Virus record (IMG/VR): IMGVR_UViG_3300025890_002527
Location: 1-24,487 of that record
Length of the DNA stretch: 24,487 bases
Direction: 5' to 3' (one strand)
Origin: a virus
Position numbers and translations under genes: made by a program
The notes under the pieces: generated by a model
Told to the model about the DNA's origin: nothing
Database searches by the model: none
The model's input: only the letters and a program-made list of their open reading frames with translations
In this document: positions 389-22,791 of the stretch, piece by piece
Layout: each line of letters opens with the position of its first letter
Numbering within the stretch: position 1 is the stretch's first letter

Positions 389-2965
389 TTGTCATTCTAT
401 ACGTCTGTGAATCGTTATGGCAACACAATCATGTATCGTGGATATAATGATAGTGGCGCACCTATTTCATATAAAGAAAAATTTAAACCAACTCTTTATA
501 CACGGTCTCAAACTCCTACTAAGTTTGTTTCCTTTGATGGTGGACATGTAAAGCCTAGATCGTGTGATAGCATGAAAGAAGCTAAAGAATGGTTGGCGTT
601 TCATGGTGAAATGGATGGCTTTAAAGCTTATGGTACTACGAACTATATTCATCAATTCATTACAGATAAGTTTCCATCAGACATTAAATTTAACACTAAT
701 CATATTAATATAGTGAACTTTGATATTGAGGTAGCTTCAGATGATGGATTCCCTGTTCCAGAAGCAGCAGCTCATCCTATTACAGCAATTACTTTAAAAT
801 CTAGTAAATCATCTATATTTCAAGTTTGGGGTTTAGATAATTATGATCCTTCTAAAACTGAACTGGATCTAGATGGAAGTCTTATTCAATATCACCATTG
901 CAATTCTGAAGAAGAATTACTTGTTAAGTTCATAAATTATTGGACTAAAAATTATCCTGATGTAATCACGGGTTGGAACTGTCGTTTCTTTGACGTTCCT
1001 TATATTGTAAATCGTATTCATAATCTTGGTACACAAGAAGCAGTAAACAAACTTTCTCCTTGGGGACTGGTTAATGATCGTCCAGTATATCGATCCAATC
1101 GCCAGCTTCCAGCTTATGAAATTGTTGGAATACAACAAGCTGATTATTTAGAATTATTTACTAAATTTGGATATTCATATGGCCCTCAGGAATCATACAA
1201 ATTAGATCATATCGGTTATGTTGTAGTTGGTGAACGTAAATTATCTTATGAAGAACACGGTAATTTATATACATTGTATAAAAAAGACCATCAAAAATTC
1301 ATTGACTATAATATCAAAGATGTTCAATTAGTTGATCGCATTGATGCTAAAATGGGTTTGATTGATTTAGCTTTAACTATGGCATATAAAGGTGGTGTAA
1401 ATCTAAGTGATACATTTGGAACAACTAACATATGGGAATCGATCATTTATCGTAGATTGCTTAGTAAAAATGTTATTACTCCGCTTAAACAAATAGATCA
1501 AATTCGTTGGTATCAAATTGCTGGAGCAACAGAAACATCGAAGACTAATCCTGGTTCTGAAGCAAGAAAGAAAGGGAAGTCTCATTCCATTGCTGGAGGC
1601 TTTGTAAAGGATCCACAGGTCGGCGGACATGATTGGGTGGTTTCCTTTGACTTAAATTCCCTGTATCCTAATATTATTGTTGAATATAATATTTCTCCAG
1701 AAACAATGATCAGAGATCCACGCATTTGTTTTGCTCAAGGTCCAGACAATTATATGAAAGATGATAACAAAGTTAATGATACTTATTCTATTGCTGCTTC
1801 TGGTGTAGCATTTAGTAAAGAAAGACAAGGCATAATTCCAGAATTGATTGTAGACTATTATGCTGAAAGATCATTAATTAAAAAACGAATGTTGGCCGCT
1901 AAGTCTGAATACGAAAAGTCAAAGAATTCTAAATTGGAATCTGAAATCAATCAACTTGAAAATAATCAGATGGCAATTAAAATTCTTTTGAATTCTCTTT
2001 ATGGCGCTCTAGCAAATCAATACTTCAAATATTTCGATAATGCTTTAGCTGAATCTGTAACACTTACAGGACAGCTTTGTATTAAGCGTGCAGAAAAAGC
2101 AGTTAATAATGAAATGACCAAACTGCTAAAAACTAACAAAGATTATGTTATTGCAATTGATACTGATTCTGTTTATATTAACATGGGTCCTTTAGTTGAA
2201 AAATTGCAATTAAAGAATCCAGTACAAGATTTAGATAAACTTTGCAGTAAACATTTTGAGCCAATCATCGCGGCTGAATATTCTAAACTGTTTAATAAAA
2301 TGAATGCCTTCACGCCTCGTATGGAAATGGGTAGAGAAGTTATTGCTGATCGTGGCATATGGACTGCAAAGAAACGATACATATTAAATGTACATAACAA
2401 TGAAGGTGTACAATACGCTGAACCAAAACTTAAGATTATGGGTATTGAAGCTATTAAATCATCAACGCCAGCCGTTGTACGTGATAAATTTAAAGAAGTA
2501 TTTAAAATCATTGTTACTGGTGATGAACAAAAAACTCGCAAATTCATAGATGATTTTAGATCTACTTTTAAATCTTTGCCCGCTGAACATGTTTCTTTTC
2601 CTCGTGGCGTAAGTGCAATAGACAAATGGAAAGATCGTAAAGCAATCTACGGTAGAGGCACTCCTATTCATGTAAGAGGTTCTTTACTATATAATCATTA
2701 TCTTCGCGATCATGCGCTTGATAAAAAATATAGTGAAATTAAAAGTGGTGAAAAGATTAAATACTCTTATTTAAAATTACCTAATCCAATACGTGAAAAT
2801 GTAGTTTCATTTCCAGACTATTTGCCGCCAGAATTTAATCTTCATAAATACATTGACTATGACTTACAATTTGAAAAAGCATTTATTGAACCAATTTTGC
2901 CAATTCTAAATGCAGTAGGTTGGTCTTTAAAAGACGAAGCAACCCTGGAGGACTTTTTCGTATGA
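389..2965 (+). CDS. 43: DNA polymerase, family B, T4 gp43 type
   Basis: This is the replicative DNA polymerase with a 3'-5' proofreading exonuclease. In 858 aa (T4 gp43 is about 898) the exonuclease motifs come first: FDIE with D112 and E114, the same numbers as in T4 as I recall it; GWNCRFFDVPYI at 195-206 with D202; and YNIKD with D311. The polymerase motifs follow: motif A SFDLNSLYPNII with D421, motif B KILLNSLYGALANQYF near 531-546, and motif C DTDS at 591-594. The start is a TTG codon with GGAGG seven bases upstream; no ATG in frame would keep the N-terminal strand. The C-terminus TLEDFFV fits a sliding-clamp-binding tail. Its coding DNA also holds the GGAGG that serves the next gene, which overlaps by 4 bases. 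Confidence 0.97.
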   Translation: MSFYTSVNRYGNTIMYRGYNDSGAPISYKEKFKPTLYTRSQTPTKFVSFDGGHVKPRSCDSMKEAKEWLAFHGEMDGFKAYGTTNYIHQFITDKFPSDIKFNTNHINIVNFDIEVASDDGFPVPEAAAHPITAITLKSSKSSIFQVWGLDNYDPSKTELDLDGSLIQYHHCNSEEELLVKFINYWTKNYPDVITGWNCRFFDVPYIVNRIHNLGTQEAVNKLSPWGLVNDRPVYRSNRQLPAYEIVGIQQADYLELFTKFGYSYGPQESYKLDHIGYVVVGERKLSYEEHGNLYTLYKKDHQKFIDYNIKDVQLVDRIDAKMGLIDLALTMAYKGGVNLSDTFGTTNIWESIIYRRLLSKNVITPLKQIDQIRWYQIAGATETSKTNPGSEARKKGKSHSIAGGFVKDPQVGGHDWVVSFDLNSLYPNIIVEYNISPETMIRDPRICFAQGPDNYMKDDNKVNDTYSIAASGVAFSKERQGIIPELIVDYYAERSLIKKRMLAAKSEYEKSKNSKLESEINQLENNQMAIKILLNSLYGALANQYFKYFDNALAESVTLTGQLCIKRAEKAVNNEMTKLLKTNKDYVIAIDTDSVYINMGPLVEKLQLKNPVQDLDKLCSKHFEPIIAAEYSKLFNKMNAFTPRMEMGREVIADRGIWTAKKRYILNVHNNEGVQYAEPKLKIMGIEAIKSSTPAVVRDKFKEVFKIIVTGDEQKTRKFIDDFRSTFKSLPAEHVSFPRGVSAIDKWKDRKAIYGRGTPIHVRGSLLYNHYLRDHALDKKYSEIKSGEKIKYSYLKLPNPIRENVVSFPDYLPPEFNLHKYIDYDLQFEKAFIEPILPILNAVGWSLKDEATLEDFFV

Positions 2966-3687
2966 ATTATATTTTTGATGTCGACGGCACGTTAACTCTC
3001 AGCCGTCAAGAAATAGATACTGAGTTTAAAGAATTCTTTTTAAATTTTATTAAAAAGCATAATTGTTATTTAGTTACAGGTAGTGACTATGCAAAAACAC
3101 TTGATCAACTAGGAAAAGAAATTTGTGAAAGTGTAACAGCATCTTTTAATTGCGCAGGAAATAGCGTGTGGCAAAAGGGTAAACAAACGTGGGCTAATGA
3201 GTGGAAGCTTCCTTCTGATGCAAGAGAATGGTTAGAAGGAATGCTAGATGAGTCAGGCTTTTATCGTAAAACTGGTAAACATATTGAAGAACGTCCTGGT
3301 ATGGTTAATTTTAGTATCGTTGGTCGTAATTGCAACCTTGAAGAAAGAGCAATGTATAGAGAATGGGATGAACAAAAAAATGAACGTAGCTTTATAGCTG
3401 CTGTGTTTGAAGATACGTTTGGTCTTTCTGCACAAGTAGCTGGAGAAACAGGAATTGACATCGTCCCGCCTGGCGCAGATAAAAGTCAAGTAGTAGAATG
3501 GATTGAAAAACCAATTGTTTTCTTTGGTGATAAAATGCAATTAGGTGGAAATGACTTTCCACTAGTAAAAGCTCTTGAACAATATAACAAATGTAGTTCT
3601 ATTCAAGTTAAAGATTGGAAAGACACACAGAGAATGCTATGGGCATTAGAAAATTCTATTGTACACGAACATGTAGGTGTGGTATAA
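2962..3687 (+). CDS. Phosphomannomutase, eukaryotic (PMM2-like) HAD type
   Basis: It probably interconverts mannose 6-phosphate and mannose 1-phosphate. The 241-aa length matches eukaryotic PMM (about 246 aa). The motifs also fit: nucleophile FDVDGTLT with D6 and D8, VTGSD at 38-42, ERPGMVNFSIVGR at 110-122 (substrate-binding in the family), GIDIVPPGADKS at 164-175 with the HAD lysine K174, and FFGDKMQLGGND at 187-198. Bacteria normally use the unrelated phosphoglucomutase-fold enzyme, so a PMM of this type in a phage is unusual. The start chosen is the ATG overlapping the polymerase stop (ATGA), with GGAGG upstream; a longer in-frame start inside the polymerase gene would add an unrelated N-terminus. 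It could belong to a GDP-mannose pathway with the isomerase-type cupin at 5730-6497. Sister HAD IIB sugar phosphatases cannot be excluded. Confidence 0.85.
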   Translation: MNYIFDVDGTLTLSRQEIDTEFKEFFLNFIKKHNCYLVTGSDYAKTLDQLGKEICESVTASFNCAGNSVWQKGKQTWANEWKLPSDAREWLEGMLDESGFYRKTGKHIEERPGMVNFSIVGRNCNLEERAMYREWDEQKNERSFIAAVFEDTFGLSAQVAGETGIDIVPPGADKSQVVEWIEKPIVFFGDKMQLGGNDFPLVKALEQYNKCSSIQVKDWKDTQRMLWALENSIVHEHVGVV

Positions 3688-8658: not shown

Positions 8659-9221
8659 AAAATTTTATTGGTATATATGACAACTCTATTGATGATGATT
8701 TAGTTAATGACTATTTAAATTATTGGGATAATAATCAAGTTTTTATTAAAAATGGTATGGTCGGACACAATGGAGATATTGTTGTAAAAACCGATGTAAA
8801 AGATTCACGAGATATTACGTCTAATAATCTTCCTGCTGAATTAATCATGAGGTATCAAACCTCATTACAAAAAGCTTTAAACGAGTATTTAGAAGAATAC
8901 AAGGAAGCTAATCATGTTTCTAAGTTTAAAATTGTACAAGAATATAATTTTCAATGTTATCCTCCAGGTGGAGGTTTTAAGACTTGGCACCATGAATTAG
9001 CTGCGCATAGAACAGATGGCACTCGTCATTTAGTTTTTATGACATATCTGAATACTATTAAAGATGGTGGTACTGAATTTTTATATCAAAATTTAAAAGT
9101 TGATGCGGTTAAAGGCAGAACAGTCATATGGCCACCCGGCTTTACGCATACTCATAGAGGTGTGATATGTCAAGAACCTAAAGCAATTTTAACAGGATGG
9201 TGGAGCTTAGTACCACAATGA
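8655..9221 (+). CDS. 2-oxoglutarate/Fe(II) oxygenase, prolyl-4-hydroxylase-like
   Basis: The 188-aa protein has the double-stranded beta-helix motifs of phage P4H-like dioxygenases. YPPGGGFKTWHHEL (102-115) supplies the HxE pair (H112, E114). RHLVFMTYLNTIKDGGTEF (124-142) is the core strand set. GRTVIWPPGFTHTHRG (154-169) holds the distal histidine (H165 or H167), and the following CQEPKAILTGWW has a basic residue for 2-oxoglutarate. Enzymes of this shape hydroxylate protein side chains or nucleobases; in marine T4-like phages they are common and mostly uncharacterised. A DNA-base or sugar target would suit this operon but is inference. The start is a GTG overlapping the previous stop (GTGA). 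Confidence 0.85.
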   Translation: MKNFIGIYDNSIDDDLVNDYLNYWDNNQVFIKNGMVGHNGDIVVKTDVKDSRDITSNNLPAELIMRYQTSLQKALNEYLEEYKEANHVSKFKIVQEYNFQCYPPGGGFKTWHHELAAHRTDGTRHLVFMTYLNTIKDGGTEFLYQNLKVDAVKGRTVIWPPGFTHTHRGVICQEPKAILTGWWSLVPQ

Positions 9222-9994
9222 GAATTATCGCTGGACCGTGTCAACATGAAACCTTTGAGCAAAGTTTAGAAATTGCTTTACATTGTAAAGACGTTTGTGA
9301 CAAATACGAAGCCGAATATTATTTTAAAGCTAGTTTTGATAAAGCAAACCGAACTCATGTTAGTGGAATTCGTGGCAGAGGATTGAACGCTACTTTAGCA
9401 TCATTCTTAAATATGAAAGAAGAAATACCTCAGTTAAGGACTCTTACTGATGTACACTCTGTAGAAGATATATGGGAACTTGTAGACCACTTTAATGATG
9501 CAGTAGATGTTCTACAAATACCCGCATTTCTTTGTCGCCAGACAGACATAATTGAAGCTGCTTGCGAAACAGATAAAATTGTAAATATAAAGAAAGGCCA
9601 ATTTTTAGCTCCTTGGGATGTTACAGGAATTTTAAGTAAAACACAAAATGCTAAAGAAATTTGGATAACCGAAAGAGGTACTAGCTTTGGATATAACAAT
9701 CTTGTTGTTGACTTCACTGGGGTTGACTATATGCTTAACAATTATGACTGTGACGTTGTTCTTGATGTTACTCACTCTGTCCAAAAACCCAGCGGAATTG
9801 GACATTGTTCGGGCGGTGCTCCTATTCACGTGCCTGGGTTGGCTCGTTGTGGGGCTGCTTTGGGGGTCACTTCCTTCTTTATCGAAGTCCACCCTATGCC
9901 TGAAAACGCACCCAGTGATTCGGAAAGTATGCTTAGATTAGATGAATTTGAAAGGGTTGTAGATGAAATCCACCGCTATTCTTATACCCGCTAG
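9218..9994 (+). CDS. kdsA: 3-deoxy-8-phosphooctulonate (KDO-8-P) synthase
   Basis: This enzyme condenses phosphoenolpyruvate with arabinose 5-phosphate to KDO 8-phosphate, the first committed step of KDO synthesis. Nearly every family motif is present in the 258 aa: IAGPC (4-8), FKASFDKANRT (36-46), TDVH (77-80), QIPAFLCRQTD (100-110), NIKKGQFLAPWD (123-134), TERGTSFGYNNLVVD (151-165), VLDVTHSVQ (181-189) and FFIEVHPMPENAPSD (220-234). C8, H186, E223 and D234 match the four metal ligands of the metal-dependent class (the other class has Asn for Cys). The start is the ATG overlapping the oxygenase stop; a frame start 21 bases earlier adds residues absent in the family. The last third (9772-9905) is much richer in G+C than its surroundings. 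Confidence 0.95.
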   Translation: MRIIAGPCQHETFEQSLEIALHCKDVCDKYEAEYYFKASFDKANRTHVSGIRGRGLNATLASFLNMKEEIPQLRTLTDVHSVEDIWELVDHFNDAVDVLQIPAFLCRQTDIIEAACETDKIVNIKKGQFLAPWDVTGILSKTQNAKEIWITERGTSFGYNNLVVDFTGVDYMLNNYDCDVVLDVTHSVQKPSGIGHCSGGAPIHVPGLARCGAALGVTSFFIEVHPMPENAPSDSESMLRLDEFERVVDEIHRYSYTR

Positions 9995-10640
9995 ATACGG
10001 AAGCACACGTTTTGCTGGTAAGCCACTAACACTTTTAGATGGGGTGCCTATGGTTAAACGGGTGTATGATAAGTGCGTAGCGACTGGTTATGACACATAT
10101 GTCCTTACAGATGATATGTCTATTGCAAAACTATTTAATGATAATACTTGTAGAGTAGATACTACTGATTATCAAAATGGAACTGAAAGATGTGCAGGTG
10201 CAGTAAATCTAATTCGTGAGTATGATCAATATATCAATGTTCAAGGTGACATGCCAGATGTGACGCAAGAGATGATTGAAAAGACTGTGTGGCATTTAAA
10301 AAATTATTCTGTTACTACTATGTGTGCTATGATGCCAGAAGAACAGCAGAATGATCCCAACACAGTTAAGTTAGTGAGAGCAGCTGATAAATGTTTGTGG
10401 TTTGGTAGAGGCATAACAGGATATGGAGATTGGCATTTAGGTATCTATGGATACAAGCGAAATGCCCTAGAAATGTATCCAGATTTGACAGGCACTCGCG
10501 AAGAACGAATAGAAGGATTAGAACAATTACGTTGGCTAAAAAATGGCTGGGATATAGGTGTATTTCCTTGCGAATTTAATGGAATTGAGATTAATGCACC
10601 AGAAGATGCTGAAAAATGGAATATGAAAAAGGAGATATAA
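9963..10640 (+). CDS. kdsB: CMP-KDO synthetase
   Basis: This enzyme activates KDO with CTP to CMP-KDO. The 225-aa protein (E. coli KdsB is 248) has the GT-A-like cytidylyltransferase motifs: [15 protein letters not shown] (8-22), TERC near 74-77, [10 protein letters not shown] (91-100; the family usually has QGDEP), [12 protein letters not shown], and the late block [18 protein letters not shown]. It overlaps kdsA by 32 bases and has GAAAGGG upstream, so the two enzymes are translationally linked. No KDO-8-P phosphatase (KdsC) is visible in the window. It may come from the host, or the HAD protein at 2962-3687 could substitute, which is speculation. CMP-KDO is normally used for lipid A-core assembly. 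Confidence 0.93.
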
Positions 10641-11253: not shown

Positions 11254-11691
11254 ATGAAAGTAGGATTTACATGTAGTACGTTTGATTTGCTTCACGCCGG
11301 CCATATCGCAATGTTAAGAGAAGCAAAAGAACAATGTGATTGGCTTATATGTGCATTACAAGTTGATCCATCTTGGGACCGCGCAGAAAAAAACTCACCT
11401 ATTCAAAGTGTGGTAGAAAGATATAAGCAGCTTTCTGCAGTAAAATATGTAGATGAGATCATTGTTTATTGTACAGAATCAGATTTAGTTGATATAATAA
11501 ACATGTATCCAATTGATGTACGTATACTTGGTGATGAATATAAAGACAAAGATTTTACTGGTAAAGATGAATGTCGCCGTAGAAACATTTCTTTATATTT
11601 TAATAAACGAGACCACAGATTTTCGTCATCTGATTTGCGTAAACGAGTATTTGAAAAAGAGCTAGAAAAAAATGATTCTCCAAACGGTTAA
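11254..11691 (+). CDS. Glycerol-3-phosphate cytidylyltransferase-like protein (TagD type)
   Basis: The 145-aa protein has STFDLLHAGHIAML (8-21) with HAGH at 14-17, VERYKQLSAVKYVDEII (54-70), which in TagD holds the E-R-x-x-x-h segment, and RFSSSDLRKRV (122-132) in place of R-x-S-T-T-x-x-h. These motifs fit CTP:glycerol-3-phosphate cytidylyltransferase and close relatives that activate glycerol phosphate, sugar phosphates or choline phosphate. The length is about that of TagD (129-140 aa). The substrate is not certain. It follows the cupin gene by one base and overlaps dCMP hydroxymethylase by 20 bases. No strong ribosome site is seen, so translation may be coupled. Confidence 0.8.
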   Translation: MKVGFTCSTFDLLHAGHIAMLREAKEQCDWLICALQVDPSWDRAEKNSPIQSVVERYKQLSAVKYVDEIIVYCTESDLVDIINMYPIDVRILGDEYKDKDFTGKDECRRRNISLYFNKRDHRFSSSDLRKRVFEKELEKNDSPNG

Positions 11692-12373
11692 TGACATACG
11701 TCAATTTTTTATTGACGAATTAAATGATGAAGCGTTTACAATTGATAAGACAGGCCAAAGAACTGTTGAATTAATCGGCGCAAACTTTCTTGCAACTGAG
11801 CCAGCAATCTTTGGTACACCAAACGAAGATTATATTAAAAAAGAAATTGCATGGTATGAATCACAAAGTACTAACATATATGATATTAACGGTGTAGACT
11901 CAGATGCTCCTCCACAAGCATGGCAGTATTCCAGTAATAAACACGGTGAAATTAATTCTAATTATGGCCACTTAGTATTCTCTAAAAAATACCATAACCA
12001 ATTTCAAAATGCATTTGATGAATTATGGAATAACCCTGATAGCCGTCGTGCTCAGATGATTTATAATCGTCCATCAATTTGGCTTGAATTCAATGAGCAA
12101 GGTAAGTCTGATTTCATCTGTACTAATGCACAAACATTCTATATTCGTGACGGTATCCTTTCAATGGTATCTCAAATGCGTTCTAATGATGTTGTGTTTG
12201 GCTACAAGAATGATTATGCATGGGCTCAATACCTAATGGATAAGATGGTAGCTCAATGGAACGATAGGTGCAAACTTCCAGGCAATAAGCATTTTTCTAT
12301 TGATAAAGGTATGCTTACGTGGCAAGTAATGAATTTGCATGTTTACGAGCGCCACTTCCATTTAGTTAAATAA
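11672..12373 (+). CDS. 42: dCMP 5-hydroxymethylase, T4 gp42 type
   Basis: This enzyme converts dCMP to 5-hydroxymethyl-dCMP with methylene-tetrahydrofolate, for use in phage DNA. The protein is co-linear with T4 gp42 as I recall it: FTIDKTGQRTVELIGANF, EPAIFGTPNEDYI, EIAWYESQS, GEINSNYG, NPDSRRAQMIYNRPS, SDFICTNAQTFYIRDG and MRSNDVVFGYKNDYAWAQY. The catalytic Cys is C150 (T4 C148). D181 (T4 D179) replaces the Asn that thymidylate synthase uses to select dUMP, so specificity for dCMP is expected. The length is 233 aa (T4 246). ThyX elsewhere in the window covers dTMP synthesis, which fits this gene not being a thymidylate synthase. It predicts hydroxymethylcytosine in the genome. Confidence 0.93.
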   Translation: MILQTVNDIRQFFIDELNDEAFTIDKTGQRTVELIGANFLATEPAIFGTPNEDYIKKEIAWYESQSTNIYDINGVDSDAPPQAWQYSSNKHGEINSNYGHLVFSKKYHNQFQNAFDELWNNPDSRRAQMIYNRPSIWLEFNEQGKSDFICTNAQTFYIRDGILSMVSQMRSNDVVFGYKNDYAWAQYLMDKMVAQWNDRCKLPGNKHFSIDKGMLTWQVMNLHVYERHFHLVK

Positions 12374-12382
12374 GGATATGAA

Positions 12383-13066
12383 ATGAAAGAATTTAGATGT
12401 GGTCCTGTATGGGATGAAAGAATTGTAAAACTAAATCCAGCTAAAAAGATTGGTGTGTTAATGTCATCAGGAGCTGATAGCACTACACTTTTTAAACTTT
12501 TATGGGACAACTTTCCAGAAACAGAAATTAGAATTTTTAATGTACAAACTTCGTGGGATCCTAAGAAACCTTTAATTGAAGAAATCCTTGAAAAATTAGG
12601 TGTTGATTTAGAATTAGAAATCATTGGAGAAAAGTATCATAATTGGGAAATGAAAAATCATTTTGCTAGACTTATGCTTGCGTTTCAAGATGTAAGAAAT
12701 GATGAAGATATTGAAGAACTTTATTGTGGTAATATTTTGCCTCCACATCCTCAATGGTTTCCTCGTTGGAATGTAGACCAAAAGGGAATGGCTAAGCGCC
12801 CATGGCTAACTAATGACAAATTTTGGAAGAATCCATTTGAACATGTTGAAAAATATCATGTTATTGATTTAGGAAGACGAAATGGATTTGACGACATTTA
12901 TAACACAACTATTTCATGTAACACCCACGCTACTGAACCTTGTGGTTATTGTATGGGGTGTAGAGAATTAGAATACGCATATGATCAATTAGATAATGAA
13001 GAAGGTTTGTCTCTTGATAAGTGCGCTAAAATTGCAGTAAATATGTATGGAGATATAGGATGGTAG
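12383..13066 (+). CDS. PP-loop ATPase, QueC-like
   Basis: The 227-aa protein has a PP-loop SSGADS at 28-33 (family S-G-G-x-D-S) that would adenylate a carboxylate or similar group. It ends in a zinc site of QueC form: SCN (C179), then PCGYCMGCRELEYA (C187, C190, C193). QueC makes 7-cyano-7-deazaguanine (preQ0), and phages with 7-deazaguanine DNA carry it. In this window no FolE, QueD, QueE or DpdA is seen, and the middle of the protein (HPQWFPRWNVDQKGMAKRPWL) is not standard QueC. So it may be a paralogue acting on another substrate, possibly within the DNA-modification set around it. The start has AAGGAT upstream. It overlaps the next gene by 7 bases (ATGGTAG). Confidence 0.75.
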   Translation: MKEFRCGPVWDERIVKLNPAKKIGVLMSSGADSTTLFKLLWDNFPETEIRIFNVQTSWDPKKPLIEEILEKLGVDLELEIIGEKYHNWEMKNHFARLMLAFQDVRNDEDIEELYCGNILPPHPQWFPRWNVDQKGMAKRPWLTNDKFWKNPFEHVEKYHVIDLGRRNGFDDIYNTTISCNTHATEPCGYCMGCRELEYAYDQLDNEEGLSLDKCAKIAVNMYGDIGW

Positions 13067-13617
13067 ACTTAGCTGAAAAATATAATCGCGCCGCTAAATC
13101 ATATTATGAAGAAAAATATGTAGATGGCGGATGGGAAAACAACATTTATATGCAAGATGAGAAAGATGCTCATAAGTTTTGGATGGAAAATAGAGAAGAT
13201 GGAAAATACATTTCATTAGGTGTTGGATCTGGACAAGATATTCCTATTTTAGGCTGGCCTGGAAAAGAAAATTTTACAGGATATGATTTATCTCAAGGTA
13301 TGTTAGATAATGCTAAAGAAAAGTTTTCAGATCATAATTTTATTTTAGCTGATTGTAATGAAAATATAGATGATAGCTGTGATGTTCTTGTTAGTTTATT
13401 TGGTGTACCTAATTACATAGGTCTTCCTAAGTTGATGGAGCACTATAACAATTTTAATGCTCAGCATGCTTTTTTTGTATTTTATGCAGAATGGTATGAT
13501 GATGGCATTGCAGATGACTATAATAGGTACACCAAAGAAGAATTAGAAACACTGTTGTCTTCTCATAATCCTATTATTAAACAACTAAATGAGAATTATT
13601 ATATCGTTAAATGGTAG
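13060..13617 (+). CDS. Class I SAM-dependent methyltransferase
   Basis: In 185 aa, motif I is ISLGVGSGQD at 51-60, the acidic end of strand 2 is GYDLSQGML (D76), and FILADCNE around 94-101 gives the residue that contacts adenine. DVLVSLFGVPNYIG stands at motif IV but has no D/N-P-P-Y/F, so it is not an obvious DNA N-methyltransferase. The C-terminal part is short. Small-molecule or sugar methylation is more likely than DNA-base methylation. Both its ends overlap neighbours in the same manner (ATGGTAG), which ties it to the QueC-like and deaminase genes. Confidence 0.75.
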   Translation: MVDLAEKYNRAAKSYYEEKYVDGGWENNIYMQDEKDAHKFWMENREDGKYISLGVGSGQDIPILGWPGKENFTGYDLSQGMLDNAKEKFSDHNFILADCNENIDDSCDVLVSLFGVPNYIGLPKLMEHYNNFNAQHAFFVFYAEWYDDGIADDYNRYTKEELETLLSSHNPIIKQLNENYYIVKW

Positions 13618-14060
13618 AACGTAAAATGAAATGGGATATAAGATATTTAAAATTAGCAGAAGAAGTATCTAAGTGGTCTAAGGACCCTTCTTCTCAAATT
13701 GGAGCAGTTGCAGTAGGATCCAAAGGTCAAGTTTTATCTCAAGGATATAATGGTTTTCCTCGAGGCATAGGAGATTCTTTATCAAGATATTCAATAAGAG
13801 AAACTAAATATAAGTACATAGTACATGCTGAACAAAACGTAATTTACAACGCAACTTACAACGGAGTATCTTTATATGGAGCTACCTTATATGTTTATGG
13901 CTTGCCTGTTTGTAACCATTGTGCTCTTGGTGTTATTCAGGTAGGAATCACAAGAGTTGTTATGTCAAAACAAAAAATAAAAGAACAATGGATTGACTCG
14001 TGGAATATGACTAAACAATTATTTGATGAAGCGGGTGTGGAATATGAATTCATTCTCTGA
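13611..14060 (+). CDS. cd: dCMP deaminase
   Basis: It deaminates dCMP to dUMP, the substrate of ThyX. The 149-aa protein has the zinc-dependent deaminase motifs: VHAEQN at 71-76 (zinc ligand H72, catalytic E74) and LPVCNHCALGVIQVGI at 98-113 with zinc ligands C101 and C104 (the family has P-C-x-x-C; here Pro is one residue farther). DPSSQIGAVAV and QGYNGFPRG match phage and ComEB dCMP deaminases. It lacks the extra zinc insert of T4 Cd (193 aa). Feeding dUMP to ThyX competes with the hydroxymethylase for dCMP, so the two fix the thymine to hydroxymethylcytosine balance. Confidence 0.9.
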   Translation: MVERKMKWDIRYLKLAEEVSKWSKDPSSQIGAVAVGSKGQVLSQGYNGFPRGIGDSLSRYSIRETKYKYIVHAEQNVIYNATYNGVSLYGATLYVYGLPVCNHCALGVIQVGITRVVMSKQKIKEQWIDSWNMTKQLFDEAGVEYEFIL

Positions 14061-14769
14061 AATGTATTCCAAAATTATAGAAGGATATAGGTGGACAGTA
14101 ATAAATATAGACACTACGCATAGATGTTTACTTCAGTGTCAATTTTGTTCACGCCAATCTGAAATTCAAGGGAAACCTATGATTTCTGATTACCGGAAAT
14201 CTTATGGCGATTTAAAAACAAAAGAATTAATAAAGTTAACCGACTTCGTAAGAAGCGGCATTTCTTTTTGTGGCCAGATTTCTGATCCGATATATCACAA
14301 AGATTTTATTTCATTGTTGTCATCAATAGATGATGTAACATATTTAGAAAAAATAGAGATCCATACAAATGGATCTGGAAAAAAACAAGAGTATTGGGAT
14401 GAACTTGTAGATGTAGCTTGGCAACTTGAAACTAGAATAGAATGGCATTTTGGTATAGATGGTATAGATGAAAAGGCTGCTATTCATAGAGTTGGCCAAG
14501 ATTTTCATTCAGCCTTTGAAGCAATGAAATATGTAGCATCAAGACAAAAAAAAGAACCTGAACATGAAAGATGGCGAGTCATTTGGCAATACATTCCATT
14601 TGCATATAATGAGCATGAAATAGTGAAAGCAAAAGAAATGGCAGATGAAATAGATGTAGAATTAATATTACTTACTTCAGGTAGGTTTACTCCTGATAGT
14701 CCAGTTGCTCCTCCTACAGATATAAACTTAATTTCTGAAAAATTGTTTGGTGAGAAAAAGAGAGTATGA
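14044..14769 (+). CDS. Radical SAM enzyme core domain
   Basis: The 241-aa protein has the [4Fe-4S] motif CLLQCQFC (C28, C32, C35), then SFCGQISDPIYHKDF where the family has its G-G-E block, EIHTNGSG, and HFGIDGIDEKAAIHRVGQDF, all typical of radical SAM enzymes that carry a C-terminal SPASM domain. The SPASM part is not in this frame; it is the next gene, overlapping by 4 bases. SPASM-type enzymes modify peptides or carbohydrates and other metabolites by H-atom abstraction. The start is taken as ATG 14044; in-frame TTG 14023 and ATG 14026 lie within the deaminase gene without a ribosome site. The substrate is unknown; context suggests a nucleotide, sugar or modified base. Confidence 0.82.
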   Translation: MNSFSEMYSKIIEGYRWTVINIDTTHRCLLQCQFCSRQSEIQGKPMISDYRKSYGDLKTKELIKLTDFVRSGISFCGQISDPIYHKDFISLLSSIDDVTYLEKIEIHTNGSGKKQEYWDELVDVAWQLETRIEWHFGIDGIDEKAAIHRVGQDFHSAFEAMKYVASRQKKEPEHERWRVIWQYIPFAYNEHEIVKAKEMADEIDVELILLTSGRFTPDSPVAPPTDINLISEKLFGEKKRV

Positions 14770-15080
14770 AACTTTATCCTCAATGCTGGTGCGTAACAAT
14801 GGAAGGTGATTATAAACCTAATGATGGATTTCCTGGTGCAGGAAATGGTTTAGCCTTTACTGCTTCAGGACATCTTCTCCCTTGTTGTTATTTAGATAAG
14901 TATCACAACTATAAAAATAATACTAAAAATCTGTGGGATGATGAATTAAGAGTTGATCGAAATGACGATCTTCTTGATATTATAGAATCAGAACAGTGGT
15001 ATAATTTTCATAAAGAATTATATGAACATCCTGAAAATGCGTGTAAAGAATGTCATACGCATTGCTCTAAACCAAAATAA
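14766..15080 (+). CDS. Stand-alone SPASM-like Cys-rich protein, partner of the radical SAM gene
   Basis: The 104-aa protein has seven cysteines (C7, C9, C40, C41, C93, C96, C100) in the order of a SPASM or twitch auxiliary-cluster domain: GLAFTASGHLLPCCYLD (28-44), NTKNLWDDEL (52-61), then ESEQWYNFHKELYEHPENACKECHTHC (74-100). In single-chain phage and bacterial enzymes this block directly follows the radical SAM barrel; here it has its own start overlapping the upstream TGA (ATGA). It most likely docks on the 14044-14769 protein to supply one or two auxiliary iron-sulfur clusters. A sequencing frameshift in a single gene is the main alternative. It is the last gene of the operon. Confidence 0.75.
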   Translation: MKLYPQCWCVTMEGDYKPNDGFPGAGNGLAFTASGHLLPCCYLDKYHNYKNNTKNLWDDELRVDRNDDLLDIIESEQWYNFHKELYEHPENACKECHTHCSKPK

Positions 15081-15093
15081 TAAAAAAAAATAG

Positions 15094-15122
15094 TTTACAT
15101 TTGTGTAAAAATATGTTAGAAT
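15094..15122 (+). promoter_or_regulatory. Promoter of the Agt-to-ThyX operon
   Basis: TTTACA (15094-15099), a 17-base spacer ending ATATGT, and TAGAAT (15117-15122). The -35 box is the left arm of an inverted repeat, TTTACA-TTTG-TGTAAA (15094-15109), echoing the palindrome at the first two promoters. Transcription should start near 15129, leaving a leader of about 50 bases before the gene at 15180. Confidence 0.75.
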
Positions 15123-15179
15123 TATATTTAATAATCATAAATACGTATATCACACACTTGTAAATTTAAGGAATCATAA

Positions 15180-16427
15180 ATGACTAGAATTGCTATTATC
15201 CTTGGCCGTGGTACTGAAGGCTGCGGTGTAACACAATGTGCTATTCAAATGCAAAAAGTTACAGATGCTGATATTTTCTCAGCCGTTGATAAAAAATGGG
15301 GACGAGCAAAGGGATTAGAAATAGATCAAAAAGAATTTGTAATGGGTACGCAGTGGGAATTAACTGCAGACACTATTAATTCAATGTATGATTTAGCAAT
15401 CATTTATTCAGTACCTTCTAAGTCTCACCCACAAGATTGTCAAGATAATTTTGTGCCATTCTTAAAAAGATTAAAGATACGTAAAGCATTTATTAATGTA
15501 GACCATAAAGCTGCTTCAATAGCACGTAATGCTAATCTAAAAGAAGTTTGCGAAAACGTTGATGTCATTATGACTCACAGTCTTGAAAATGATTTCTCAA
15601 AATTTATGAAGAAACATAAAATTCAAACTCCATTAACTAAGATGGGTTTAGGTTTTGACTATGATAACCATCGTCAAAAATATTGGAGGCCAATTGAAGA
15701 ACAGCAACATAATATGGTTCGTTGGATTGGACGTACTGCAATGTGGAAAGGCCCTAGCTTGATGATTGATTTTCATCAGGATGCATTAATGGATCAAGGA
15801 TTCATAACTGTTCTTGAAGGTCTAGAAGCTTCGATACAATATCCGCTTGTTTTATATCGTGATAATAAAGAAGAAAATCCAGTTGATCGTCGTATAGTTG
15901 AAAATCATTTTAGACCAGAAAAGAAATTTAATGAAGTTAAGTTTACTTCTGATTTATATGGTAAAGAACAAACTAACAAAGGCGCTTATCTATATCCTCA
16001 ATACATAAATAATGAAGCAATGATGAGGATGGCACGTTCAGCTTTTGGTTCTGATTTATATTTTTTAAAAGCAGAACACTATGGTAATAATATTGAAAAT
16101 TGTCACGCTGAATGCATCGCATCTGGCACTGTACCATTATTCCATAAACACTTTTGTGATAACGTAATACATCCTGTACAGGGTGATCCTATTAGTCAAT
16201 GCAATAATTCCGGCACTCTTGGTGTTGACTATACTAACTTTAAAGAGTGTCAAGAAATAATGACAAAACTCAAAAACGATCCGTCTATGAGAGATGATTG
16301 GAGAGAAATGGCATTTGAATTTTGGAGACAGCATTCTAATGGTAAAGATGTTGTAAATGAAATTATTGATCTTGCTATTAACACAACTGAAAACCAACCA
16401 CAAGGACTAGAGGAATTTTTCGTATGA
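15180..16427 (+). CDS. agt: DNA alpha-glycosyltransferase, T4 Agt homologue
   Basis: T4 Agt moves glucose from UDP-glucose onto 5-hydroxymethylcytosine in DNA. The 415-aa GT-B protein aligns along its length with T4 Agt (about 400 aa) from memory: the N-terminal IAIILGRGTEGCGVTQ, IYSVPS, RWIGRTAMWKG (181-191), VLEGLEAS (211-218) and CHAECIASGTVPLFH (308-322). T4 has H114-D115-H116 in the active site; here the aligned residues are V107-D108-H109, so one histidine is lost. The two following genes oxidise and epimerise UDP-glucose, so the donor may be UDP-GlcA or UDP-GalA. The C-terminus GLEEFFV resembles the DNA polymerase tail and would suit sliding-clamp binding, reported for T4 Agt. The site AAGGA precedes the ATG. 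Confidence 0.85.
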   Translation: MTRIAIILGRGTEGCGVTQCAIQMQKVTDADIFSAVDKKWGRAKGLEIDQKEFVMGTQWELTADTINSMYDLAIIYSVPSKSHPQDCQDNFVPFLKRLKIRKAFINVDHKAASIARNANLKEVCENVDVIMTHSLENDFSKFMKKHKIQTPLTKMGLGFDYDNHRQKYWRPIEEQQHNMVRWIGRTAMWKGPSLMIDFHQDALMDQGFITVLEGLEASIQYPLVLYRDNKEENPVDRRIVENHFRPEKKFNEVKFTSDLYGKEQTNKGAYLYPQYINNEAMMRMARSAFGSDLYFLKAEHYGNNIENCHAECIASGTVPLFHKHFCDNVIHPVQGDPISQCNNSGTLGVDYTNFKECQEIMTKLKNDPSMRDDWREMAFEFWRQHSNGKDVVNEIIDLAINTTENQPQGLEEFFV

Positions 16428-17383
16428 AAATTTTAGTAACAGGAATTGCCGGTATGATCGGCTTCCACGCAGCCAAGCACTTCGCAGAAAACAAATGGGA
16501 AGTATGTGGCTTAGACAATTTTAATGATTATTACGATCCACAATTAAAAGAAGATCGTGCTAACATTTTACAAGAAGAATATAATGTTCCTATTATGCGA
16601 GGGGACATTGAAGCATTTAAAGAAATTAATAACAACACGTCATTCATGAAAGATGTAGATATTGTATTGCACTTAGCTGCATATGCAAATCCAAGACACG
16701 CGCTAGAAGAACCACAACCATACATTGATACTAACATAACTGGAACTCAGCGTATTATAGAAGTATGTGAAGAACTAAACATACCAGTTGTGTATGCATC
16801 AAGCTCATGTGTTATGCATGGTCAGCCTTTACCTTGGAATGAACATGATCGACCAGATTTACAAAACAATCCATACGGCTGGTCTAAACGAGTAAATGAA
16901 TGTCAATTTGCTCATTCTAATATTCCACGTTCAGCTGGTCTTCGTTTCTTTACAGTGTATGGTCCATATGGTCGACCAGACATGGCTCTATTTAAATTTA
17001 CAGATGGAATTGTAAAAGGCGAACCAATTACACTTTATAACTATGGTGACATGAAACGTGATTTTACCTATGTACAAGACATCGTAAATGGTATAGAATT
17101 AGTAGTAGATAAAGCTGTAAACGAACATAACCAAGATTGGCATGAGATTTACAATATTGGCTATGGCGAACAAGTTAATCTATTAGATTTTGTAGATGAG
17201 ATTGAACAAAATCTTGCTAGGAAAGCAATTAGAGAATTTGCCCCTAAGCATCCTGCAGATGTCCCTGAGACGTGGTCTGACACTACTAAGTTACAAGCGT
17301 TAGGTTATAATCCTAAAACTTCTATAAACGATGGTGTTAAAGAATTTGTTACTTGGTATAAGAGTTATTATGGAGTGAATTAA
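16424..17383 (+). CDS. UDP-glucuronate 4-epimerase-like NAD-dependent epimerase
   Basis: The 319-aa short-chain dehydrogenase/reductase has TGIAGMIG (G7, G10, G13) for NAD, and DNFNDYYDPQLKEDR (31-45), a signature of the CapI/GAE UDP-glucuronate epimerase group. The active site consists of S127/S128 and YGWSK (Y151, K155), and the block FFTVYGPYGRPDMALFKFTDGI (175-196) with MKRDFTYVQDIVNGI is also of this group. The reaction expected is UDP-glucuronate to UDP-galacturonate. Its substrate would come from the next gene, UDP-glucose dehydrogenase. It overlaps the Agt homologue by 4 bases, and the AGAGGA inside the Agt C-terminal codons acts as its ribosome site. Another UDP-hexuronate or pentose activity is possible. 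Confidence 0.88.
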   Translation: MKILVTGIAGMIGFHAAKHFAENKWEVCGLDNFNDYYDPQLKEDRANILQEEYNVPIMRGDIEAFKEINNNTSFMKDVDIVLHLAAYANPRHALEEPQPYIDTNITGTQRIIEVCEELNIPVVYASSSCVMHGQPLPWNEHDRPDLQNNPYGWSKRVNECQFAHSNIPRSAGLRFFTVYGPYGRPDMALFKFTDGIVKGEPITLYNYGDMKRDFTYVQDIVNGIELVVDKAVNEHNQDWHEIYNIGYGEQVNLLDFVDEIEQNLARKAIREFAPKHPADVPETWSDTTKLQALGYNPKTSINDGVKEFVTWYKSYYGVN

Positions 17384-18201
17384 TGAAAATGACAATTGTA
17401 GGCCACGGATTCGTTGGCAAAGCAGTAGACTTTGGATTTTCAAATCCAAGTGTTACTAAAACCATTATTGACCCTCTTTATAATATTACTTTAGAGGATG
17501 CAAGTTTAAATGAAGATGTAACATTTGTCTGTGTCCCTACACCTATGGGTGAAGATGGTGCCATTGATTGTTCTATTGTAGTTGATACTGTAAGACAACT
17601 TTTGCTACGTAGATCAGGAATCATTGTTATTAAATCAACTGTGACACCTGACGTAATTGAAAAATTTACAACACCTCATGGCTCACTTAGAGTAGTTTAT
17701 AATCCTGAATTCTTAACTGAAAAAAATGCATGTGAAGATTTTGTAAATCCATCTATGCATATTTTTGGTGGAAATAAAGATGCTACAGAACGGTTAGAAG
17801 GAATCTATAAAGACTATAGTTTATGTAAGCCATGCCCTGTATATCACATGTCAGCTACTGATGCAAGCTTTGTAAAATATGGAATCAATTGTTTTCTTGC
17901 ATCAAAGGTCACGTGGATGAATCAATTTTATGATGTTATAAAAAACTTTGGAGGCAATTATGGTATTATCAGTAATGCAATTGGAACGGATCCAAGAATT
18001 GGCGGGTCACACATTACTGTTCCTGGTTTCGATGGCAAGCGTGGTTATGGTGGTGCTTGTTTTCCGAAAGATACATCAGCATTTGCAAAGTTTGCTAAAT
18101 CTTTTTCCGTTTTAGAAAAGGTTATCGAAGAGAATAATAACTATCGTAGTTGTTACGATAAAGACGAAAGAGAAAAGGCTCAGAATGTGAACTATGGTTA
18201 A
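17383..18201 (+). CDS. ugd: Short UDP-glucose 6-dehydrogenase
   Basis: It oxidises UDP-glucose to UDP-glucuronate with two NAD+. The N-terminal Rossmann domain begins IVGHGFVGKAV; VPTP (51-54), STVTP (85-89) and NPEFLTE (107-113) are family motifs. The central domain has KYGINCFLASKV (165-176) and the catalytic C226 in GYGGACFPKD (221-230). At 272 aa it ends shortly after the catalytic loop, lacking the C-terminal UDP-binding domain (usual length about 390-450). The last 20 residues are charged and unlike the family. Either it is a minimal phage form that dimerises differently or a trimmed enzyme with lower affinity. The gene starts on the stop codon of the epimerase gene (TAATG). Confidence 0.88.
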   Translation: MKMTIVGHGFVGKAVDFGFSNPSVTKTIIDPLYNITLEDASLNEDVTFVCVPTPMGEDGAIDCSIVVDTVRQLLLRRSGIIVIKSTVTPDVIEKFTTPHGSLRVVYNPEFLTEKNACEDFVNPSMHIFGGNKDATERLEGIYKDYSLCKPCPVYHMSATDASFVKYGINCFLASKVTWMNQFYDVIKNFGGNYGIISNAIGTDPRIGGSHITVPGFDGKRGYGGACFPKDTSAFAKFAKSFSVLEKVIEENNNYRSCYDKDEREKAQNVNYG

Positions 18202-19384
18202 TTATGCAAGTATAGTTCCACTAATAGGTGGAGAAACAATCGCGATGCAAAATGTATTTGGGACAAAGCCTGAATATATATTATCGTATACGGACTTTGA
18301 AGCAAATGATAGCCAACTTCTTAATTACTACAACAATAGTGTTCCTTATTATAAGCTTGACGTGGGTGGTCTTGCACCTCACAGTGTCGATATTGTCAAC
18401 ACTGTTTGCCCTTGTGCTGGCCTGTCTTCCCTTTCTCCTAGCAGCAATGCTAATAGCAGCACTAATGACTGGATGGTCAAGTCAGCCGAATATGTTTTGG
18501 AATCAATCCAGCCAACAGTTTTTTGGGGAGAAAACGCTCCAAGATTAGCAAGTAAAATGGGTGAAAACGTTGTAGCTCAGCTTCGTCAACTAGCGAGGAA
18601 GAATGGTTATACCTTTAGCATTTATAAAACTAAATCTATTTTACATGGACTGAGTCAAATTAGAGATAGAGCTTTCTATTTCTTTTGGAAAGGTAATTCA
18701 GTTCCAAAATTTAATTTTTATAAAAGACCATATGAAAGAATTGAAGACGCTATTCGTTCTGCTGCAACAAATGAAGCAGATCCAATGTTTGAAACTTTAG
18801 CTAATAATAAAACTCCATCTGAAGAACCGTTTTACCAATACGTATTACAAGAAATGCATAGTGGTATCAGCCATATGGAATTTTTTAATTTAATTGAAAA
18901 AACAACTAATCCATTACATTATATTGAACAGAAAAAAGTTGATTACGAAGATGTAGCAAAGTGGATGGATGCTAATGATCATGAAAATCATGCACGAAAA
19001 TGTCGTAGGATGGGTGAGAAACTAAAAGCTGGCGGCAACATTATGAGAAAAACCACAGAAATTGGTAAAGATTATATTGGAGCTTTTGTTGGTCACTTTC
19101 CAATGGAACTTACTCATCCAGATCAAGATAGATATTTGAATATTAGAGAAGCTTTGTCTATTATGAAAATGCCTAAGGATTTTCAATTAGTAGGTGGTCG
19201 AAAAAACATTAATATGATTTGTCAAAATGTTCCAGTGACTACTGCGCAAGACATGGCAGAGAATGTAAAAAGATTTATAAGTGGTGAAGCTGATTTAGTT
19301 GAGTCAGACTTTGTAATTCAAGATAATAAATCAGAAACTTTCTGGTCTGAAAAACAACCAGCAACATTAGAAGAATTTATGTAA
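18194..19384 (+). CDS. Divergent DNA cytosine-C5 methyltransferase homologue
   Basis: The 396-aa protein follows the C5-methyltransferase motif order. IVPLIGGETIAMQNVFG (7-23) stands for motif I (D-L-F-A-G-x-G-G), TVCPCAGLS (70-78) for P-P-C-x-x-F-S with C74 as the candidate nucleophile, WGENAPRL (111-118) for E-N-V, and GLSQIRDRAFYFF (152-164) for the Q-x-R-x-R block. Near the end, LNIREALSIMKMPKDFQL and MICQNVPVTTAQDM match motifs IX and X. Motif I lacks the usual Asp and Phe, and a 110-aa helical region replaces a normal target-recognition segment. In a genome whose cytosines are probably hydroxymethylated, it may act on a minority of bases or a different C5 group. The tail ATLEEFM again resembles a clamp motif. 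It overlaps ugd by 8 bases. A sharp G+C-rich patch covers the catalytic motif (18360-18480). Confidence 0.7.
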   Translation: MVNYASIVPLIGGETIAMQNVFGTKPEYILSYTDFEANDSQLLNYYNNSVPYYKLDVGGLAPHSVDIVNTVCPCAGLSSLSPSSNANSSTNDWMVKSAEYVLESIQPTVFWGENAPRLASKMGENVVAQLRQLARKNGYTFSIYKTKSILHGLSQIRDRAFYFFWKGNSVPKFNFYKRPYERIEDAIRSAATNEADPMFETLANNKTPSEEPFYQYVLQEMHSGISHMEFFNLIEKTTNPLHYIEQKKVDYEDVAKWMDANDHENHARKCRRMGEKLKAGGNIMRKTTEIGKDYIGAFVGHFPMELTHPDQDRYLNIREALSIMKMPKDFQLVGGRKNINMICQNVPVTTAQDMAENVKRFISGEADLVESDFVIQDNKSETFWSEKQPATLEEFM

Positions 19385-22104: not shown

Positions 22105-22791
22105 ATGCATGCACGTCTCATATCCTATAGCCAACCCTCAGGTCGTATCTACGCAGGAGAACCTGCAATCAAGGGGCTTGATAACATCCAAGACCTCATC
22201 GCTTATTGCGCCCGTGTCTCCAACCCACAAAACCAAGCTAACACCAGAACAACGGCAAAATTACTTGAGTATCTCATCAAGCACAAGCACTGGTCACCAT
22301 TCGAAATGTCATCAGCCTGTATTGAAGTCGAAACAACAAGAGATATTGCCCGACAACTCCTCCGACATAGGAGCTTTAGTTTTCAAGAGTTTTCTCAGCG
22401 GTATGCTGACATCCGTGATCTTAATGACAATTTTATTATAAGAGAAGCTCGTTTACAAGACACTAAAAATCGTCAAAATAGTATAAGTACTGATGATACA
22501 GAATTGCAAATGCAATGGGAAGGATACCAACAAAGTGTTATCAATCAAGCAAAAGCTGCATACGAATGGGCAATCGAAAACGGGATCGCTAAAGAACAAG
22601 CCAGGGTTGTTTTGCCAGAAGGAAACACCGTCTCTCGTCTTTATGTTAATGGTACCATTCGTTCTTGGATACATTACATTGATCTCCGCTCGTCAAATGG
22701 AACACAAATGGAACATATCGAATTGGCAAAAGAAATAGCAAAAGCTATATCTGCAATTTATCCTAGCATTATGGAGGTGGTAGATGGGTAA
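22105..22791 (+). CDS. thyX: FAD-dependent thymidylate synthase
   Basis: It makes dTMP from dUMP using FAD, NADPH and methylene-tetrahydrofolate. The 228-aa protein has the ThyX motif RHRSFSFQEFS at 87-97 (R-H-R-x7-S) followed by QRYAD, HWSPFEMSSACIEVETTRDIARQLL upstream (63-86), and late ARVVLPEGNTVSRLYVNGTIRSWIHYIDLR with the substrate arginines. It uses dUMP from the dCMP deaminase at 13611-14060 and explains why the ThyA-fold protein of this window can be a hydroxymethylase. A TAGGAG site precedes the ATG. The first 300 bases are richer in G+C and use C-ending codons, unlike the rest of the gene. Confidence 0.95.
   Translation: MHARLISYSQPSGRIYAGEPAIKGLDNIQDLIAYCARVSNPQNQANTRTTAKLLEYLIKHKHWSPFEMSSACIEVETTRDIARQLLRHRSFSFQEFSQRYADIRDLNDNFIIREARLQDTKNRQNSISTDDTELQMQWEGYQQSVINQAKAAYEWAIENGIAKEQARVVLPEGNTVSRLYVNGTIRSWIHYIDLRSSNGTQMEHIELAKEIAKAISAIYPSIMEVVDG

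Follow-up and report, generated by a model that had tools for sequence, protein, structure and literature searches.

A conserved gene block of a marine T4-like phage predicted to write hexuronate on hydroxymethylcytosine DNA

The window examined here is a 24,487-base stretch of a single IMG/VR virus record (IMGVR_UViG_3300025890_002527), taken at its full length. By its uvsX, DnaB-type helicase and family B polymerase genes, names that rest in part on the annotated neighbours in phage record C48C1, the virus is a marine T4-like phage. It carries a block of four overlapping genes for an AGT-family DNA glycosyltransferase, a uridine diphosphate (UDP)-glucuronate 4-epimerase-like enzyme, a UDP-glucose 6-dehydrogenase-like enzyme and a C5-cytosine DNA methyltransferase homologue. 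The explanation that we consider best, and reasonably probable in its full form, is that this block serves to write a hexuronate onto 5-hydroxymethylcytosine (hmC) in the phage DNA. A preliminary description had placed a hydroxymethylase, an AGT-type transferase and the two sugar genes in this region, and all were found there, with the overlaps it reported; its assignment of the donor genes to the DNA glycosyltransferase stands, its claim to novelty less so (see below).

From the gene families, the conserved block, the joint variation of donor genes and transferase and the shared protein tails, all of which we computed, we infer the enzyme activities, donor choice, linkage, clamp binding and protection as follows. 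The hydroxymethylase would convert deoxycytidine monophosphate (dCMP) into hydroxymethyl-dCMP, to be built into DNA instead of dC. The phage dehydrogenase would turn UDP-glucose into UDP-glucuronate (UDP-GlcA), from which the epimerase would then make UDP-galacturonate (UDP-GalA). Kept at the replication fork by a clamp-like C-terminal tail, the AGT homologue would place a hexuronate, most likely galacturonate and probably alpha-linked as by T4 AGT, on the hydroxymethyl of hmC in newly made DNA; the C5 methyltransferase would, by the same tail argument, likewise work at the fork. Being bulky and charged, the resulting base would protect against restriction and nuclease-based defence.

DNA-level matches to the window were found in six of 50,697 phage records, each covering at most 4% of it, and a second IMG/VR contig (L001) is 100% identical over the AGT region. 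Locus counts given below include close or near-identical relatives without de-duplication (L002-L005, for instance, give one match profile), and most loci belong to one T4-like lineage. The genes of the block, like the hydroxymethylase, deaminase and polymerase genes, lie on the plus strand.

The hydroxymethylase gene (11672..12373, 233 amino acids) is of the T4 gp42 type. Its best match in the PDB was T4 entry 1b49 (213.7 bits), and the alignment gave 46% identity to T4 gp42 versus 24% to RB69 ORF048c. C150 and D181 of the window protein align with T4 C148 and D179, in agreement with the dCMP-specific Asp of the preliminary description, and T4 E60, W82, N178 and W182 are present here and in nine aligned relatives, whereas they are altered in ORF048c. 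We take C150 to be the catalytic Cys and D181 the cytosine-specific Asp, roles that we assume, as we do those of the other four residues. The comparison with ORF048c matters because RB69-group phages are reported to contain 5-arabinosylcytosine derived from 5-hydroxycytosine made by a hydroxymethylase homologue (PMC13390438). As the T4 positions are kept in the window and changed in ORF048c, the hmC reading is favoured, with 5-hydroxymethyl-dCMP as the predicted product; RB69-style 5-hydroxycytosine chemistry was rejected for the window, its hydroxymethylase being T4-like. A dCMP deaminase gene (13611..14060; PF00383, 66 bits; phrog_174, dCMP deaminase), which the preliminary description passed over, lies downstream. 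A ThyX thymidylate synthase is encoded at 22105-22791 (PF02511, 144.3 bits), leaving the thymidylate synthase-family gene at 11672 free for dCMP.

The AGT gene (15180..16427, 415 amino acids) starts 2.8 kb past the end of the hydroxymethylase gene, as described before, and its product matches PF11440 with 106 bits (cut-off 25). Although only 28.6% identical to T4 AGT, the protein shares its fold: the AlphaFold model had a mean predicted local distance difference test score (pLDDT) of 80.4, and its nine best PDB matches were all T4 AGT chains (TM-score 0.76-0.82 by query). It is thus predicted to glycosylate hmC in DNA. T4 residues E306, H309, E311, R204, H116 and H140 are kept. In T4 AGT, three His residues (114, 116 and 140) are said to contact glucose (PMC6024577); the window protein retains the latter two, and His114 is replaced by Val107 (codon 15498..15500), Val being found in all 71 rows that cover this position. 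His occupies it in the AGTs of T4, S-TIM5, phage G (both) and L108; the whole records of S-TIM5 and phage G gave no dehydrogenase match.

The epimerase gene (16424..17383) overlaps the AGT gene by 4 bases and encodes a short-chain dehydrogenase/reductase (SDR) enzyme. Its best PDB match was 5u4q (237.6 bits), titled dTDP-glucose 4,6-dehydratase, followed by 6zl6, 6zlj and 6kv9 (MoeE5), of which we take 6zl6 and 6kv9 to be UDP-GlcA 4-epimerases. NCBIfam had no model that reached its cut-off for the epimerases tested. We rejected an assignment as UDP-xylose synthase, since decarboxylases accounted for none of the 36 PDB matches at E ≤ 1e-15. R184 aligns with Arg185 of the Bacillus cereus epimerase, which holds the carboxylate of UDP-GalA according to PMC12338863, where MoeE5 is also named; the surrounding stretch RFFTVYGP.GRPDM was present in 16 of 17 compared SDR proteins, that of L162 being the exception. 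With these nearest solved relatives and the carboxylate-holding Arg, the enzyme is predicted to convert UDP-GlcA into UDP-GalA. Among the sugars considered in the preliminary description, this signature favours a hexuronate, most simply galacturonate, and a pentose is less likely because the part of the window that was searched showed no recognisable gene of the UDP-glucuronate decarboxylase kind. Judged from the genes, the DNA sugar is most likely a uronic acid, namely galacturonate donated by UDP-GalA.

The dehydrogenase gene (17383..18201, 272 amino acids) follows with a 1-base overlap, both donor genes thus lying behind AGT as first described. The protein matches PF03721 (66.9 bits) and PF00984 (59.2 bits) and has the NAD domain, central domain and active-site residues of UDP-glucose 6-dehydrogenases. 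E109, E113, K165, N169, R205, C226, K229 and D230, invariant across 25 dehydrogenase sequences, presumably form the active site. The model had a pLDDT of 92.8, and all 50 of the Foldseek matches listed were UDP-glucose dehydrogenases, among them BceC and Cj1441, which we assume to be such enzymes. The predicted reaction is UDP-glucose to UDP-GlcA.

The fourth gene of the block, unmentioned in the preliminary description though within the range it covered, encodes the C5 methyltransferase homologue (18194..19384, 396 amino acids; PF00145, 64 bits, cut-off 22). It overlaps the dehydrogenase gene by 8 bases, as it does in 50 of 56 loci. The C5 METHYLTRANSFERASE motifs PCAGLS, GENAPRL and Q.RdR were conserved in 56 sequences; we take them to be the PC, ENV-like and QxRxR motifs. 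Motif I reads VPLIGG, its usual form presumably being FxGxGG, and the protein scored 31.6 bits with TIGR00675 (cut-off 100.65), whereas PF00145 was above its cut-off. Distant relatives occur in S-TIM5, which has an AGT, in phage G (gp301, near the gp306 AGT) and in XG4, which has a hydroxymethylase-like gene and no PF11440 match. Possible substrates in hmC DNA are residual C or hmC itself.

To what extent do these genes belong together? Of 80 AGT-seeded viral loci, 57 extended at least 2.6 kb downstream of AGT and 39 at least 3.2 kb upstream. Epimerase and C5 methyltransferase genes were found downstream in all 57, and an adjoining dehydrogenase gene in 52. Among the other five, L022 and L038 carry a dehydrogenase elsewhere in the contig; none was found anywhere in L010, L012 and L042, whose contigs span 7 to 20 kb. 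Hydroxymethylase and dCMP deaminase genes lay upstream in 38 of the 39, the exception being L073, where AGT, epimerase, dehydrogenase and a methyltransferase of only 35% identity stand together amid unrelated genes. A 1- or 4-base overlap of AGT and epimerase occurred in 70 of the 75 loci where both were found, which is more than chance. In L108, L110 and L111, the AGT belongs to a replacement lineage of about 35% identity, and the other three genes of the block are retained. Thus, a tie of the donor genes to the transferase, as the preliminary description had held, is supported by co-variation across relatives, by the L073 context and by the same epimerase type beside other DNA glycosyltransferases (see below). 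The gene block is not accidental; its description as one operon rests solely on the overlaps and the conserved order.

Other TRANSFERASES with the same donor genes were seen as well: 92 further epimerase/dehydrogenase loci comprised 52 with AGT, 13 with TAGT (13 of the 40 without AGT) and 27 with neither. All five TAGT proteins tested were far above the PF20691 cut-off. Among 80 TAGT-seeded loci, an SDR epimerase adjoined in 64 (23 of the window type, 41 of another type), one had a dehydrogenase alone and 15 had neither; eight of these 16 epimerase-less loci end within 440 bases. For the other SDR type (e.g. L162:4051-4989), the best PDB match was a UDP-GlcA decarboxylase (93.7 bits), a GalE entry scoring 90.3 bits. 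The methyltransferase served as seed for 80 loci, and those with 3.2 kb upstream, 45 in all, entered the count: 29 carried AGT of either lineage with epimerase and dehydrogenase, six AGT with epimerase, two a divergent AGT alone and eight no AGT.

What stands in place of AGT varied. The complete record C48C1 has the epimerase-dehydrogenase pair, and in one overlapping run (L192:5584-9031) encodes a TET/JBP oxygenase, a 344-amino-acid protein whose only match was phrog_14998 (unknown function), and a UDP-galactopyranose mutase. It also encodes a NodU-like carbamoyltransferase (L193:2705-4222), possibly for a second hmC decoration by analogy with 5cmdC (PMC8670742). The last two families of the run recur in the hydroxymethylase loci L303, L309 and L313, as a protein of about 370 amino acids with UDP-galactopyranose mutase (170.5 bits in L303) and an SDR, which suggests a galactofuranose-type DNA sugar in loci of this kind. 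The ~370-residue family is 27-35% related to the C48C1 protein; in L316 and L318 it is accompanied by a window-type epimerase (54%), with the dehydrogenase elsewhere in the contig. At L336:763-4511 and L323:1541-3594, the place of AGT is taken by a 5-hydroxymethyl-dU DNA kinase-like helical-domain protein (HMUDK_hel; 38.2 bits in L336, where Pfam was checked) and a neighbour, both with clamp-like tails; L336 adds an inositol phosphate synthase-like protein, and these loci possibly specify another hmC hypermodification. L340 has a transferase candidate 33% related to that of L148, next to a nucleotidyltransferase-like protein. Neither the ~370-residue family nor the L148/L340 candidates had a Pfam family, and PHROGs gave no name. 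That the hmC enzyme and the donor genes change together in these loci, some of the transferases being candidates, is the strongest reason to link them.

A further bond between the DNA-acting enzymes is an LE.FF-like C-terminal tail common to polymerase, AGT and methyltransferase of the window and absent from its sugar genes. The family B polymerase (389..2965; a provisional assignment from gene position and BLAST neighbours) has TLEDFFV at 2942-2962, AGT has GLEEFFV (16404..16424; a predicted sliding-clamp docking peptide, residues 405-415 having pLDDT < 50), and the methyltransferase ends in the same tail type, TLEEFM (19364..19381). A strict pattern applied to open reading frames (ORFs) of at least 100 amino acids, in a redundant set that included cut ORFs, found the tail in 12 of 12 polymerases with their end in reach, 123 of 139 AGTs and 112 of 133 methyltransferases. 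It was absent from 166 epimerases, 147 dehydrogenases, 98 hydroxymethylases, 111 uvsX and 88 DnaB proteins. It occurred in one of 17 TAGTs, two of four L148-type transferases and five of 632 unassigned ORFs, namely a D12 DNA methyltransferase, the two HMUDK_hel proteins and their two neighbours; outside polymerase, AGT and methyltransferase this makes eight of 1840 ORFs, where shuffled ends would lead one to expect 0.7. The C48C1 TET protein is tailed too (SLEEFFV); the ~370-residue proteins and most TAGTs are not. T4 gp43 ends in SLDFLFG, and an interaction of T4 AGT with the gp45 clamp has been reported (PMC6024577). The tail resembles a sliding-clamp tag, and polymerase-like tails, the gp43 end and the AGT-gp45 interaction together make it very likely that AGT and methyltransferase act on DNA at the replication fork.

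Several points weigh against a hexuronate-writing block. It is known here from the genes of an uncultured phage. A Pfam search found no match in the dehydrogenase to the C-terminal UDP-binding domain PF03720, and its TIGR03026 score of 144.9 bits was below the NCBIfam cut-off of 189.8; we therefore class it as UDP-glucose dehydrogenase-like and two-domain. Across the 58 loci counted, every complete dehydrogenase ORF was 270-286 amino acids long; the group thus normally has the short form, which does not reflect a break. The 27 of 92 donor-gene loci with neither AGT nor TAGT are accounted for in part by contig ends. The whole of C48C1 gave no match to PF11440, PF20691 or PF00303, which at first counted against the link to DNA glycosylation, but the record has the TET/JBP run described above. 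The AGTs of L108, L110 and L111 keep His114 yet have the same donor genes adjoining, and those of L334 and L343 agree with L108 in the checked residues without having donor genes. Because these loci break the pattern, His114-to-Val was rejected as a decisive donor marker; the change offers a hint within the main lineage and not beyond it, and the residue evidence on the donor sugar is weak. Furthermore, L125-L129 have a 56-57% identical epimerase in glycosyltransferase-like gene clusters in which no DNA-modification gene was recognised (ORFs were read in L125), and the window itself has envelope-sugar genes at 9197-10640, for 3-deoxy-D-manno-octulosonate (KDO)-8-phosphate synthase (301.8 bits, NF003543, cut-off 242) and a CMP-KDO synthetase-like protein (below cut-offs).

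These last observations would suit an alternative in which AGT uses plain UDP-glucose as in T4, and the UDP-GalA made by dehydrogenase and epimerase goes into envelope or virion glycans or serves superinfection exclusion. UDP-glucose is the donor of T4 AGT, whose E306, E311, H116, H140 and R204 are kept here. Against this, among the 27 AGT loci that reach 5.5 kb upstream only six contained the KDO gene kdsA, so that envelope-type neighbours are optional; envelope-only use of the donor genes was rejected on this ground. In addition, the overlapping gene order holds in the 70 of 75 loci, the donor genes accompany AGT into the L073 context and persist beside other DNA glycosyltransferases, and the epimerase-less AGT loci L334 and L343 are also without a dehydrogenase in reach (the L334 contig was searched). 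We consider this alternative unlikely.

Less probable again is that glucuronate itself is placed on the DNA, with the epimerase just balancing the pool or serving elsewhere. UDP-GlcA is the expected dehydrogenase product, and SP-15 DNA is described with a glucuronate moiety (PMC5977210), but the epimerase is the more strictly kept of the two (57 of 57 loci against 52 of 57 with adjacent dehydrogenase), and L316 and L318 hold it at the transferase while the dehydrogenase lies elsewhere.

That the donor is a UDP-pentose, which another enzyme of phage or host would make from UDP-GlcA, strikes us as quite improbable. Val at the His114 position would fit a sugar that lacks the C6 hydroxyl, since His114 of T4 AGT presumably faces O6, judging by the GT4 fold. 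Arabinose is reported on RB69-group DNA (PMC6024577, PMC13390438), and 41 of the 64 SDR-bearing TAGT loci have the other SDR, with its best PDB match a UDP-GlcA decarboxylase and GalE nearly equal. The window SDR, however, retains the carboxylate-holding Arg, and the block showed no other SDR (the sequence at hand covers 24.5 kb of the genome). Finally, mere hitch-hiking by descent within one phage lineage, to which most loci belong, many of them near-identical, is hard to credit in view of L073, the replacement of AGT in L108/L110/L111, the loci with TAGT and a site where entire blocks are exchanged.

This exchange led us to a broader proposal, which we offer tentatively and at somewhat less than even confidence: in marine T4-like phages, next to uvsX, fixed genes for hydroxymethylase, deaminase and clamp-tagged C5 methyltransferase homologue would flank a swappable block of one hmC enzyme and the genes for its donor, galacturonosyl-hmC being one 'DNA serotype' among several selected by modification-dependent restriction. 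Its apparent variants are AGT with UDP-GlcA/GalA genes, AGT alone, the ~370-residue family with UDP-galactopyranose mutase or with epimerase, and the 5-hydroxymethyl kinase-like protein with the inositol phosphate synthase-like protein. The logic would be comparable to that of bacterial O-antigen loci.

How does the hexuronate-hmC block relate to known systems? With the T4 glucosyl-hmC system (gp42, AGT, BGT) it shares hydroxymethylase and AGT homologues, the AGT fold at a TM-score of about 0.8, and presumably the order of events, hmC being written before replication and the sugar added after (PMC6024577). Unlike T4, which relies on host UDP-glucose, the window has donor genes overlapping AGT, Val for His114, a C5 methyltransferase behind and a polymerase-like AGT tail; T4 AGT ends in FKEQFDIITK, without such a tail. 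RB69/Mosigvirus phages with arabinosyl-cytosine likewise have phage sugar-modifying genes near a DNA glycosyltransferase, between polymerase and uvsX (PMC6024577, PMC13390438), and in the RB69 group these are kept with a DNA arabinosyltransferase (PMC13390438). In contrast to the window, the RB69 genes described there are for an isomerase, an NTP transferase and others, and the sugar is on 5-hydroxycytosine; ORF048c, without the four T4 residues that the window has, is inferred to be a 5-hydroxy-dCMP synthase. Thanatos is reported as a pentose system in which donor-making genes accompany a DNA glycosyltransferase (PMC12838424). SP-15, with hypermodified thymine, also combines an acidic sugar on phage DNA with a phage UDP-glucose dehydrogenase; however, in this Bacillus phage glucuronolactone is attached to dihydroxypentyluracil via a phosphodiester, and neither AGT nor UDP-GlcA 4-epimerase is named in the available part of the source (PMC5977210). 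In the environmental 5cmdC phages (hydroxymethylase plus carbamoyltransferase), the second hmC step is exchangeable and the hydroxymethylase constant, as here, but the group added is a carbamoyl and not a sugar (PMC8670742). TAGT/TET phages such as C48C1 have the same epimerase-dehydrogenase pair, unlike the window without PF11440, PF20691 or PF00303 matches in the C48C1 record. In view of SP-15 (PMC5977210) and the RB69 group (PMC13390438), the preliminary description's 'new kind of hypermodification' was overstated. Neither a hexuronate linked glycosidically to hmC nor this block was found in the open-access literature searched, subscription papers lying outside its scope.

Among the neighbouring genes, a phosphomannomutase-family protein directly behind the DNA polymerase (2920-3687, likely start 2962; PF03332, 87.3 bits) could supply sugar-1-phosphate. 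Between hydroxymethylase and AGT (12383-15080) lie ORFs for a QueC-like protein (27.2 bits, cut-off 22), a methyltransferase-like protein, a radical SAM protein and, separately, SPASM. A part for the QueC-like, methyltransferase and radical SAM genes in the pathway was sought and none found; among the 80 AGT loci, QueC occurred only in L001-L005, the closest relatives of the window.

If the proposed pathway is correct, most cytosines of the phage would carry a negatively charged, glycosidically bound sugar that alters how the DNA is read by restriction enzymes, type IV enzymes and Cas nucleases, and each donor block would foretell, from sequence alone, which sugar the DNA of an uncultured phage carries. 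The shared C-terminal tail would be an easy means of recognising replisome-coupled DNA modification enzymes of these phages by sequence, and has already flagged unannotated candidates. Related phages may vary their DNA sugar coat to evade bacterial defences, and if whole transferase-donor blocks are exchanged while the flanks stay fixed, the diversity of DNA sugars would become a trait of the arms race that can be tested.

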